Positions 59,914-63,843 of a DNA stretch of 64,000 nt are shown piece after piece (the stretch's first letter is position 1; every line of letters starts with the position of its first letter). Both the position numbers and the translations under genes were made by a program. The notes under the pieces are model-generated. The model saw only the letters and a program-made list of their open reading frames with translations, did not search any database and had not been told where the DNA came from. The stretch covers positions 124,001 through 188,000 of the forward strand of contig NZ_ATYR01000007.1 in assembly GCF_000427785.1 (NCBI RefSeq), given 5' to 3'. Origin of the DNA: Massilia alkalitolerans DSM 17462 (GTDB lineage: Bacteria; Pseudomonadota; Gammaproteobacteria; Burkholderiales; Burkholderiaceae_D).

Positions 59914-60714
59914 TCAGATCGCCGGGGTGGGGCGGTAGCCTAATGTAGCCGAAATACTGGATGCGGTCTGCACCAGGTCTTCCAGCCATTCTTCCTGCAG
60001 GCGGTCGGCCGGGGCCGAGATCGACAGGCCGGCCACCAGCTTGCCGCTGTCGTCGTGGATGCCGGCGGCCATGCAGCGCACCCCCAGTTCCAGTTCCTCG
60101 TTGTCGCGCGCATAACCGCGCGCGCGCACCAGGCTCAGCTCGCGTTCGAAGCGGGCCAGGTCGGTGATCGAATTCTTGTTGTGGCCCGCGAGACCGGTGC
60201 GGGTGGCATAGGCGCGGATGGTCTTGGCATCGTCGATCGACAGGAACAGCTTGCCGGTCGAGGTCAGGTGCAGCGGCGCCCGGCCGCCGATCGCGCGCAC
60301 CACCTGCATGCCCGAGCGCTCGGAATAGGCACGGTCGATGTAGACGATCTCGTCGCCCTGGCGCACCGACAGGTTCACGGTCTGCTGGGTTTTCTTGTGC
60401 AGGGCGCGCATGAAGTCGAGTGCCGCTTCGCGCACCGACAGGCGGCTCTTGACCACGTTGCCCAGTTCCAGCAGGCGCATGCCGAGGCGATAGGTGCCCG
60501 GCTCGACGCGGTCGACGAAGCGCGTGACCACCATGTCGTTCAGGATGCGGTGCGCGGTCGAGGGATGCAGGCCGGAGACTTTCGACAATTCCTTCAGGCT
60601 CACCGGGTCGGAATAATTGGCCAGCGCATCGAGCAGCGCCATCATGCGCTCGATCACCTGGATCGAGGTCTTGCCCGGTGCCGCAGCGGCCAGTTCTGGG
60701 GTTTCCATTTTCAT
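59914..60714 (-). CDS. IclR-family transcriptional regulator
   Basis: 266-residue one-component regulator with an N-terminal winged HTH (about 20-85; ERMMALLDALANYSDPVSLKELSKVSGLHPSTAHRILN pattern) and an IclR effector domain (GDEIVYIDRA, GRAPLHLTSTGKLFL, GVRCMAAGIHDDSGKLVAGLSISAP). ATG 60714 is preferred to a far-upstream ATG (60849) because the extra N-terminus is not IclR-like and would overlap dgkA. Its own upstream region holds GTTTCACATCATGG (60762-60749, minus strand), which resembles half of the aceE upstream dyad. Confidence 0.9.
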   Translation of the reverse strand: MKMETPELAAAAPGKTSIQVIERMMALLDALANYSDPVSLKELSKVSGLHPSTAHRILNDMVVTRFVDRVEPGTYRLGMRLLELGNVVKSRLSVREAALDFMRALHKKTQQTVNLSVRQGDEIVYIDRAYSERSGMQVVRAIGGRAPLHLTSTGKLFLSIDDAKTIRAYATRTGLAGHNKNSITDLARFERELSLVRARGYARDNEELELGVRCMAAGIHDDSGKLVAGLSISAPADRLQEEWLEDLVQTASSISATLGYRPTPAI

Positions 60715-60848
60715 GATGTGGTTGGTGCAGTGCAGTATTGGTCTCTTTATACCATGATGTGAAACGCCGATGCAAACCGATGGGGTGCGGTGTGCAAGCC
60801 GCAGCAAGGGCGGCATAATGACAGTCCTGCATTTATTTTGAAAAATCA

Positions 60849-61235
60849 ATGGAACACCCGATCAGCGAGTTCAAGACCAAGCGCGGCATCGCCCGCATCC
60901 TTGCCGCCTGCCGCAACACCCGGGACGGCCTGGCCTGGGCCTGGCGCAGCGAGGCCGCCTTCCGCCAGGAGATCGTGGTGATCGCGATCGCGAGCGTGGC
61001 GGCCTTGCTGCTGCCGGTCTCGGCTTTCCAGAAACTGGTCCTGATCGGCGTGCTGATCCTGGTGCTGATCGTGGAGATCATCAACTCGGCCATCGAGGCC
61101 GTGGTCGACCGCATTTCGCTCGAGCGCCATCCGCTGTCGAAAGTGGCGAAGGACATGGGCAGCGCGGCCGTCGCCCTGGCCTTGCTGCTGGCGACGGCCA
61201 CTTGGGCAGTGGTGCTGTACAGCCGGTTTTTCTAG
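60849..61235 (+). CDS. dgkA: diacylglycerol kinase
   Basis: 128-residue integral membrane kinase that recycles diacylglycerol to phosphatidate. Three hydrophobic helices, RNTRDGLAWAWRSEAAFRQE at the N-terminus, the conserved EIINSAIEAVVDRIS active-site helix and KVAKDMGSAAVALAL. The start lies 134 bp from the divergent IclR gene start. Confidence 0.95.
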   Translation: MEHPISEFKTKRGIARILAACRNTRDGLAWAWRSEAAFRQEIVVIAIASVAALLLPVSAFQKLVLIGVLILVLIVEIINSAIEAVVDRISLERHPLSKVAKDMGSAAVALALLLATATWAVVLYSRFF

Positions 61236-61251
61236 CACTTTTGTGGAACAA

Positions 61252-61275
61252 GCAAATTACAAAGCTGTCGTTTGC
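61252..61275 (+). promoter_or_regulatory. shared sulfur-type dyad, copy 1 (peroxiredoxin)
   Basis: GCAAA-N14-TTTGC, within a longer conserved block aligned with the elements before tauE-like and cysT genes; 73 bp upstream of the peroxiredoxin start. Alignment continues downstream (GCC.AA(C)CGCC.AGT... TATGCGTT). Confidence 0.6.
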
Positions 61276-61347
61276 CAAACCGCCAAGTGCTCTTAGACTA
61301 TGCGTTGCAGAAGTAACCCCGTAGTCCAATCACATGGAGAAATGACG

Positions 61348-61986
61348 ATGACCTTACGCCTCGGCGATACCGCCCCCGATTTCGAGCAGGATTCCAGCAT
61401 CGGCAAGATCCGCTTCCACGAGTGGGCGGGCGATTCCTGGGTGGTGCTGTTCTCGCATCCGGCCGACTTCACCCCGGTCTGCACCACCGAACTGGGCCTG
61501 ACCGCCAAGCTGAAGCCGGAGTTCGACAAGCGCAACGTCAAGGCGATCGCGCTGTCGGTCGACCCGGCCGACCAGCATCGTGCATGGATCAAGGACATCG
61601 AGGAAACCCAGCAGACCGTGGTCGGCTTCCCGATCATCGCCGACGCCGACAAATCGGTGTCCACCCTGTACGACATGATCCACCCGGAAGCCTCGGCCAC
61701 CGCCACCGTACGCTCGCTGTTCGTGATCGACCCGGCCAAGAAAGTGCGCCTGATCATTACCTACCCGATGAGCACCGGCCGCAACTTCGACGAAGTCCTG
61801 CGTGTGATCGACGCCCTGCAGCTGACCGACGGCTACACCGTGGCCACCCCGGGCAACTGGAAGGACGGCGACGACGTCATCATCCCGCTGACCGTGCAGG
61901 ATCCGGCCGTCATCGAGCAGAAGTATCCGAAAGGCTACACCTCGCCGCGTCCTTACCTGCGCCTGACCCCACAGCCGAACAAGTAA
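61348..61986 (+). CDS. 1-Cys peroxiredoxin (Prx6/AhpC-TSA family)
   Basis: 212-residue cytosolic peroxidase; peroxidatic Cys45 in HPADFTPVCTTELG and no other Cys, so a 1-Cys Prx6 type needing an external thiol. MTLRLGDTAPDF is the start (ATG 61348, GGAGA at 7 nt; ATG 61342 is too close to the ribosome site). The shared upstream dyad suggests sulfur-linked expression, as for some peroxiredoxins induced in sulfur starvation. Confidence 0.93.
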   Translation: MTLRLGDTAPDFEQDSSIGKIRFHEWAGDSWVVLFSHPADFTPVCTTELGLTAKLKPEFDKRNVKAIALSVDPADQHRAWIKDIEETQQTVVGFPIIADADKSVSTLYDMIHPEASATATVRSLFVIDPAKKVRLIITYPMSTGRNFDEVLRVIDALQLTDGYTVATPGNWKDGDDVIIPLTVQDPAVIEQKYPKGYTSPRPYLRLTPQPNK

Positions 61987-61994
61987 ATTGTTCC

Positions 61995-62023
61995 CACGCC
62001 GGACGGCTTGTTCGTCCGGCGTG
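61995..62023 (+). terminator. hairpin after the peroxiredoxin gene
   Basis: Perfect 11-bp stem CACGCCGGACG/CGTCCGGCGTG with a 7-nt loop, but without a U-run. Confidence 0.5.
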
Positions 62024-62042
62024 CTCCACCGTCGCCGCATAA

Positions 62043-62066
62043 GCAAATAAGAAACCTGTTGTTTGC
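62043..62066 (+). promoter_or_regulatory. shared sulfur-type dyad, copy 2 (TauE/SafE gene)
   Basis: GCAAA-N14-TTTGC, 72 bp before the start codon at 62115, aligned almost base for base with copy 1 over about 45 bp. Confidence 0.6.
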
Positions 62067-62114
62067 CGAACTGCCGAGTCCCCTTACCCTGTGGCTTAAC
62101 TTGGGGGTAATGGC

Positions 62115-62888
62115 ATGTCGACGACGTATATCATCGCGGGTTTTGCAGTAGGGCTGCTGGTCGGTATGACCGGCGTGGGCGGAGGTTCGCTCATGACGCC
62201 GCTGCTGACGCTGCTGTTCGGCGTCTCGCCCTCGGTTGCCGTCGGCACCGACCTCGCCTTTGCTTCCATCACCAAGGGTGTCGGCACCATCACCCACCGT
62301 TTCAACCGCACCGTCCAGTGGCAGATCGTCGGCCGCCTGTGCCTGGGCGCCTTGCCGGCCGCGCTGGTGGCGACCCTGGCGCTGAAGCACTTCGGCGGGC
62401 TCGATGAAGAGATCGGGCAGCTCATCCGTTATTCCATCGCCGGCTCCGTGATGCTGACCGTGATCGCGCTGCTGTTCCGCGCGCGCATGCTGGCCTGGGT
62501 CAATGCCAAACCGGGGCGCCAGCTGGAGGGCAGGGCGCTGACCACCGCCACCGTCGTTTCCGGCGCGGTGCTGGGCGTGCTCGTCACCGTGTCTTCGATC
62601 GGCGCGGGCGCCATCGGCGCCACGCTGCTGGTCATGCTGTATCCGCGCCTGACACCGGCCGAAGTGGCCGGCACCGATATCGCCTATGCCGTGCCGCTGA
62701 CCGCGATCGCCGCCGTCGGCCACTGGTGGCTGGGCTCGATCGACTGGATGCTGCTGCTGACCCTGCTCATCGGTTCGGTGCCGGGTATTACGCTGGGCGC
62801 CATGGCTGCGCGCAAGGTGCCGGAGCGCTTCCTGCGCGCCCTCCTGGCGACCACGCTGACCGGCGTGGCGGCGAAGCTGGTTTTCTGA
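62115..62888 (+). CDS. TauE/SafE-family sulfite or anion exporter
   Basis: 257-residue inner membrane protein with about eight hydrophobic segments (TauE_SafE: GFAVGLLVGMTGVGGGSLMTPLLTL, later DIAYAVPLTAIAAVGHWWLG). Members export sulfite, sulfoacetate or similar. Its regulated neighbours (peroxiredoxin, sulfate permease) and shared upstream dyad fit sulfur metabolism. ATG 62115. Confidence 0.88.
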   Translation: MSTTYIIAGFAVGLLVGMTGVGGGSLMTPLLTLLFGVSPSVAVGTDLAFASITKGVGTITHRFNRTVQWQIVGRLCLGALPAALVATLALKHFGGLDEEIGQLIRYSIAGSVMLTVIALLFRARMLAWVNAKPGRQLEGRALTTATVVSGAVLGVLVTVSSIGAGAIGATLLVMLYPRLTPAEVAGTDIAYAVPLTAIAAVGHWWLGSIDWMLLLTLLIGSVPGITLGAMAARKVPERFLRALLATTLTGVAAKLVF

Positions 62889-62912
62889 TCCGTAATAGCT
62901 GTTTCCGTCTAT

Positions 62913-62936
62913 GCAAATGAGGAAAGTTTCGTTTGT
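62913..62936 (+). promoter_or_regulatory. shared sulfur-type dyad, copy 3 (cysT)
   Basis: GCAAA-N14-TTTGT, 79 bp upstream of cysT; the downstream TATGCGTT also seen in copy 1 is at 62958, at similar distance (45 versus 47 bp). Confidence 0.6.
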
Positions 62937-62991
62937 AATATAAGGGCCGCATGAGATTATGCGTTCCCTTAAGAATTTGTGAAGGGCTTCC

Positions 62992-63843
62992 ATGACCACG
63001 CTCGCACTGCCAGCGCGACGATCTCCCGGCCGGGTCATCCCCGGCTTCGGCATCTCGCTCGGCTTCACGATTTTCTACCTCGCGTTGATCGTCCTGATCC
63101 CGCTGTCGGCGGTCTTCCTGAACACCTTCACGATGAGCTGGGAGGCCTTCTGGAGCGCCGTCACTTCCGAGCGCGTGATGGCGTCGTACCGCCTCACCTT
63201 CGGCGCCTCGCTGCTGGCCGCCTTCATCAACGTCATCTTCGGCGGCATCGTCGCCTGGGTGCTGGTGCGCTACACCTTCCCGGGCAAGCGCATCATCGAC
63301 GCCCTGGTCGACCTGCCGTTCGCGCTGCCCACCGCGGTGGCCGGCATCACGCTCACCGCCCTGTACTCGCACAATGGCCTCATCGGCGAACAGCTGGCCA
63401 AGTTCGGCATCAAGGTCGCCTTCACGCCGCTGGGCGTGCTGGTGGCGCTGACCTTCATCGGCCTGCCCTTCGTGGTGCGCACGGTGCAGCCGGTGCTCGA
63501 AGAAGCCGAGCGCGAACTGGAAGAAGCCGCCGCCAGCCTGGGCGCTTCTCCGCTGCAGACTTTCTGGCGCGTGGTGCTGCCTTCGATCGTGCCGGCGCTC
63601 CTGACCGGCTTCGCGCTGGCTTTCGCGCGCGCGACCGGCGAATACGGCTCGGTGATCTTCATCGCGGGCAATCTGCCGATGGTCTCCGAGATCACGCCGC
63701 TGTTCATCATCACCAAACTCGAGCAGTACGACTACGCGGGCGCCACGGCGATCGCGGTGGTCATGCTGGTCATCTCCTTCATCCTGCTGCTGACGATTAA
63801 CCTGCTGCAGGCATGGACCCGCAAACGGGCAGGCAAGAAATGA
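62992..63843 (+). CDS. cysT: sulfate/thiosulfate ABC transporter permease CysT (CysU)
   Basis: 283-residue inner membrane permease with about six or seven segments; LGFTIFYLALIVLIPLSAVF and the ABC-contact loop EEAAASLGASPLQTFWRVVLPSIVPA are CysT hallmarks. Followed by cysW with a 4-bp overlap (ATGA). Confidence 0.94.
   Translation: MTTLALPARRSPGRVIPGFGISLGFTIFYLALIVLIPLSAVFLNTFTMSWEAFWSAVTSERVMASYRLTFGASLLAAFINVIFGGIVAWVLVRYTFPGKRIIDALVDLPFALPTAVAGITLTALYSHNGLIGEQLAKFGIKVAFTPLGVLVALTFIGLPFVVRTVQPVLEEAERELEEAAASLGASPLQTFWRVVLPSIVPALLTGFALAFARATGEYGSVIFIAGNLPMVSEITPLFIITKLEQYDYAGATAIAVVMLVISFILLLTINLLQAWTRKRAGKK

Follow-up and report, generated by a model that had tools for sequence, protein, structure and literature searches.

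Near the end of the window, the 64,000-nucleotide stretch of Massilia alkalitolerans DSM 17462 DNA analysed here, three consecutive genes are preceded by nearly the same promoter element, which raises the question of whether one regulator links them to the sulfur status of the cell. All three lie on the forward strand and encode a peroxiredoxin (prx, 61342..61986, starting at 61342 or 61348), a TauE/SafE-family permease (tauE, 62115..62888; PF01925, 4.9e-43), and the sulfate ABC permease CysT (cysT, 62992..63843; above the family cut-off). The initial annotation placed the elements at 61252, 62043, and 62913, and these coordinates are right: the pattern GCAAATnAnnAAnnTnTyGTTTG fits without mismatch, on the forward strand, at 61252..61275 in the prx promoter (GCAAATTACAAAGCTGTCGTTTGC), 62043..62066 in the tauE promoter (GCAAATAAGAAACCTGTTGTTTGC), and 62913..62936 in the cysT promoter (GCAAATGAGGAAAGTTTCGTTTGT). 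It also knew of no description of the motif, and our searches of the open literature, which leaves out most subscription papers, likewise listed no paper on it; CysB is never mentioned in PMC5343134, and the terms motif, box, and EMSA are absent from PMC10179380, which concerns Burkholderia CysB.

The element is rare in its own genome. At up to two mismatches, the full pattern has no match in the whole 6.1-Mb genome besides the three in the window, and at three mismatches 13 further matches appear, compared with two control matches; one of these 13 (C68:185471) lies 86 bp upstream of an sbp gene. Shuffles of the window gave a mean of 0.08 matches at up to three mismatches, and none of 100 reached three, but this statistic is a posteriori, since the pattern was taken from the three sites themselves; the whole-genome rarity is the stronger evidence. 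A 32-column profile built from 25 sites reported, at E ≤10 and with 150 of 1092 first-look candidates scored, the three sites of the window and no others in this genome; the cysI and sbp sites described below were not reported by the same scan.

Within the genus, at least one match at up to two mismatches was found in 60 of 61 genomes. The arms alone (GCAAATRA-N10-GTTTG, a pattern set after the cysI site of this genome was known and misfitted by the window prx site, which has T for R) gave 108 matches without mismatch in 41 genus genomes, compared with one control match. The genome scan suggested with the initial annotation thus revealed enrichment at sulfur genes: 97 of the 102 distinct arms-only matches precede genes for CysI-like (35), CysT (31), TauE (25), or Prx (6) proteins, five precede others, and a degenerate site stands before sbp. 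Among named relatives, the cysT site was present within four mismatches in 28 of 80 cysT loci, belonging to Massilia, Telluria, Duganella, Pseudoduganella, and Janthinobacterium together with one Herbaspirillum. Where tauE lies beside cysT (17 of the 80 loci), the site precedes tauE in 13 of 17 at up to four mismatches and in 17 of 17 at up to five. The shared element is therefore real, conserved, and specific. As a separate observation, one genome (G207) carries identical motif-bearing tauE-cysT promoters twice on one contig in opposite orientation (C2:22200-23095 and 161154-162049).

Wider searches are noisier. In the family, 163 of 195 genomes match the full pattern at two mismatches and many controls match too; six loci were examined among the matches listed. 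With the order-wide pattern TAAGCAAATRA-N10-GTTTG at one mismatch, ten of ten sampled family genomes match, as do 38 of 290 genomes outside the family, where 20 genomes have a control match (both by table count), so that beyond the family the matches of the strict form are not far above control. A broader pattern matched nine of 300 genomes, with five control matches, and Sbp or TauE was encoded downstream in only three of the nine loci (directly in L335 and L339, and 615 bp away, as Sbp, in L273). At another locus (L058:7702-7725), a three-mismatch site accompanied by an upstream GCATAA and a downstream TATGCT precedes a different gene.

The element is also found on other contigs of the same genome. 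At C6:122982 it precedes a cysI-like gene whose product belongs to the sulfite/nitrite reductase family and falls below every equivalog cut-off (CysI, NirA, nitrite reductase). The genes 3' of it encode CysH, CysD, CysN, and a siroheme-type uroporphyrinogen-III methyltransferase, each above its curated cut-off, which identifies a sulfate-reduction operon. The shared element thus stands before both sulfate-uptake and sulfate-reduction genes, as expected of a CysB-type cys regulon. In other genera, tauE lies directly 5' of the cysI-like gene in nine of 12 loci checked, several of which are near-identical relatives, and in L020, L042-L045, and L274-L277 such a tauE gene carries the cysI-like version of the site. 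An inverted repeat, TGCTTAT-N13-ATAAGCA, overlaps the cysI-like site (L163:8958-8984); its left part is kept in cysI promoters and is not part of the cysT/tauE/prx consensus, and the repeat may serve the CysB-family gene that diverges from the cysI-like gene.

The sbp genes show a looser version. Genes of the type found on C68 have a related site, here separated from the -10 position by 18 bp; scored with a 26-bp pattern and without a shuffle control, it was present at three mismatches in 11 of 20 loci of a genus sample and at up to five mismatches in 18 of 20. The second sbp gene has the canonical site within four mismatches in one of nine loci read; in its promoter (L164, G000:C5), TTAAGCGAATAAATTCGTTCC resembles the left arm of the cysI site with a different spacing. 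Among 28 loci in which sbp and cysT occur together, chiefly in other Burkholderiales and in Rhodocyclaceae and a few in more distant organisms, a site before sbp within six mismatches was present in 12, compared with 1.1% of shuffled promoters, some of these sites having been noticed before the pattern was set; the other 16 have none within that limit.

The proposal of a single sulfur regulon is thus borne out for cysT, tauE, the cysI-like operon, and sbp; the prx gene carries the site in the window and, beyond it, in just a few close relatives. In 25 loci of named relatives prx lies beside tauE/cysT, and the site precedes it in three and is absent in 22, for which reason prx was dropped as a general member of the regulon; in the arms-only classification, prx sites were also matched in six genus genomes. 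Its product, labelled a thiol peroxidase at first, is indeed a peroxiredoxin, more exactly of the 1-Cys/Prx6-like type, with one cysteine and peroxiredoxin 6 among its nearest solved relatives; the best NCBIfam match, NF009668, scores 210.1 bits, just below the cut-off of 211. There is a precedent for a peroxiredoxin among sulfur genes in the sulfur-starvation response of the Pseudomonas aeruginosa 1-Cys Prx LsfA, which, according to the available text of the sources, rises strongly together with msu, ssu, and cys genes when sulfur is scarce (PMC12581299) and owes its name to its induction at low sulfate (PMC4199769). The two cases share a 1-Cys Prx tied to sulfur genes and differ in that the accessible portions of those papers mention no such promoter element.

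The restricted distribution of the prx site bears on whether the promoters are alike merely through copying, without common regulation. Over the 24 bp after the site, the prx and tauE promoters are 0.71 identical in the window and 0.46, 0.71, and 0.62 identical in three relatives, a likeness attained by 4.5% of shuffles, and the cysI and cysT promoters have AATATAAG in common after the site. Yet cysT and tauE share an identity of only 0.25-0.38 past the site while arms and spacing are kept, and neither the cysI-like operon nor sbp is on the same contig as prx-tauE-cysT. We consider copying improbable as an account of the whole set and rejected it, like chance, as a full explanation; it may account for the entry of prx, but not for the regulon. 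In the window, the likeness past the motif extends over 61276-61299 (prx) and 62067-62090 (tauE), as would be expected if either had arisen as a copy, and judged from these letters the promoter of prx may derive from that of tauE.

All five promoters of this genome share one geometry, in which a -10-like hexamer begins 42 bp after the start of the site (prx, tauE, cysT, cysI-like, and sbp), so that the right arm overlaps the -35 position. In the three window promoters, 17 bp separate the hexamer that contains the right arm from the -10-like hexamer. On the forward strand, the latter is TAGACT at 61294..61299 for prx (17 bp from TTTGCC at 61271-61276, and unchanged in front of prx in relatives), TACCCT at 62085..62090 for tauE (within TTACcCT, conserved in tauE promoters), and GATTAT at 62955..62960 for cysT (conserved, with TGA just 5' as an extended -10). 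The cysI-like promoter has TACACT and the sbp promoter GATGAT, and in some relatives the tauE spacing is one base longer. The downstream block reported at first, TATGCGTT-like, corresponds to a shared stretch that does exist and represents the -10/+1 region; the letters TGCGTT themselves are not conserved among the relatives compared. Likewise, the distance of 72-79 bp from site to start codon holds for tauE (72 bp) and cysT (79 bp), and is 96 bp for prx, or 90 bp if translation starts at the ATG at 61342. Between the -10 hexamer and the ATG of cysT, the leaders of relatives contain TTAGaaGAATTTGTAATAAGG, strongly conserved among them and partly also in Herbaspirillum-type genomes; this conservation exceeds what a Shine-Dalgarno sequence needs, and the copy in the window itself (62969-62985) has diverged.

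With the right arm falling on the -35 position, the element could be taken for a mere core sigma-70 promoter type that arose three times by chance. The left arm, however, lies upstream of any core element, and such a reading is also at odds with the rarity of the element in its own genome and its strong gene specificity in the genus, so that we regard it as scarcely credible. The arms instead form a dyad of about 22-24 bp: the consensus, with the five gene classes weighted equally, is gtatAaGCAaATaA..aa.ctgTcGTTtg, and the best centre of symmetry falls at position 11.5 of the 24-bp element, with a score of 3.37 compared with less than 2.15 in 95% of 300 column shuffles. The initial annotation held that the dyad has the size of LysR sites, which does not agree with the usual 15-bp T-N11-A motif given in the available text of PMC5002191, and no T-N11-A common to the sites was seen when the shared core of the consensus was read by eye.

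This architecture would also suit a dimeric regulator from outside the LysR family, such as a repressor occluding the -35 region when sulfur is plentiful, since the dyad is statistically supported, overlaps the -35 position, and is unlike the T-N11-A box. A candidate is encoded in the window by an IclR-family gene (59914-60849; family match), which occurs near prx in all 25 loci of named relatives where prx adjoins tauE/cysT, and in 31 of the 80 loci overall. Since this gene is syntenic with prx-tauE-cysT, the LysR genes described next are not the only linked regulators, and for that reason we gave a regulator of another family more weight and the CysB-family reading slightly less. On the other side, the -35 hexamers look poor by eye, as expected of activator-dependent promoters, and no IclR-family gene was noticed by eye among the open reading frames around the cysI-like operon. 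The genes that adjoin both the cysT and the cysI-like operons of this genome are of the CysB family, and on balance we consider an operator of another family unlikely, though less so than copying or chance.

Past the end of the window, the genes 3' of cysT are cysW, cysA, and one for a LysR protein of the CysB family (L127:9827-10756), and a CysB-type helix-turn-helix protein is encoded 3' of cysTWA in 45 of 79 loci of relatives whose sequence extends far enough; most of the others lie outside the family. A second CysB-family gene diverges from the cysI-like gene, and the intervening region holds the motif, 73 bp from motif start to start codon, so that both CysB-family genes of this genome adjoin motif-bearing promoters. 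The two proteins are distinct from all other LysR-type regulators encoded in the genome (with one as the query, the other is 53% identical and the next 30%); both score above the NF009327 (CysB family) cut-off, neither reaches the CysB or Cbl equivalog cut-offs, and the nearest PDB relatives of both are CysB. The linkage of these two genes, together with the nature of the target genes, makes a CysB-family activator the best explanation. A CysB-type LysR regulator is consistent with the gene linkage, the presence of two such proteins, and the known targets of CysB, and it is probably an activator of this family that binds the element. As far as sequence comparison can tell, then, the element is probably the activator site of a sulfur-assimilation regulon bound by such a protein.

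In the mechanism that we propose, a CysB-family LysR-type protein would carry the signal of sulfur limitation, with N-acetylserine as the presumed effector, and CysB or its paralogue would bind over and just upstream of the weak -35 region, at about -55 to -32 if transcription starts some 7 bp past the -10 hexamer. The bound protein would then recruit RNA polymerase to the cysTWA-cysB, cysI-like/cysH/cysD/cysN, sbp, and tauE promoters and, in the window and a small number of close relatives but not elsewhere, to that of the 1-Cys peroxiredoxin gene. The accessible text of PMC11329422 describes CysB as induced by N-acetylserine, with sites upstream of the -35 region in cys promoters, a binding consensus called very weak, and activation sites whose centres lie 50-60 bp before the transcription start, compared with about -43 for the dyad centre here on an assumed, unmapped start. 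The regulon resembles that of Escherichia coli and Salmonella, as far as the available text of that source describes it, in its sulfate uptake and reduction targets, its LysR-family CysB, and a site at or upstream of -35, and differs in having a sharp 24-bp element at near-fixed spacing instead of a very weak consensus. Unlike in those enterobacteria, one CysB-family gene lies behind cysTWA and another diverges from the cysI-like operon, and tauE, and locally prx, are included. Among the E. coli sbp, cysZ, cysK, cysD, cysJ, cysH, tauA, and cysP promoters, only cysK stood out (11.7 bits, reached in 2 of 2000 shuffles), a score that is not rare, since 6 of the 213,640 positions scanned in E. coli, the cysK site among them, are as high. 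Two CysB-family regulators in one betaproteobacterium reportedly also occur in Burkholderia cenocepacia, as the CysB/SsuR pair. The present genome is similar in having two and differs in that no match to the SsuD family TIGR03565 was found in it, which makes it unlikely that the CysB-family paralogue serves an ssu operon.

The regulon is thus of a known kind, and its site is unusually clear and lineage-specific. It is possible, although we hold this more tentatively than the assignment to the CysB family, that these bacteria possess a lineage-specific, sharp CysB-family operator, a 24-bp dyad at about -43 and at near-fixed distance from the -10 hexamer, common to two CysB paralogues and unlike the diffuse enterobacterial sites. 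If so, such an operator would make DNA recognition by CysB directly readable. CysB is a textbook activator, and the sharp site contrasts with the very weak consensus described for it in the available text of PMC11329422; a near-invariant site at several promoters offers a clean substrate for footprints or for structural work on CysB bound to DNA and polymerase. For Massilia-type bacteria, the regulon would link sulfur status with a TauE permease and, locally, with a peroxiredoxin.
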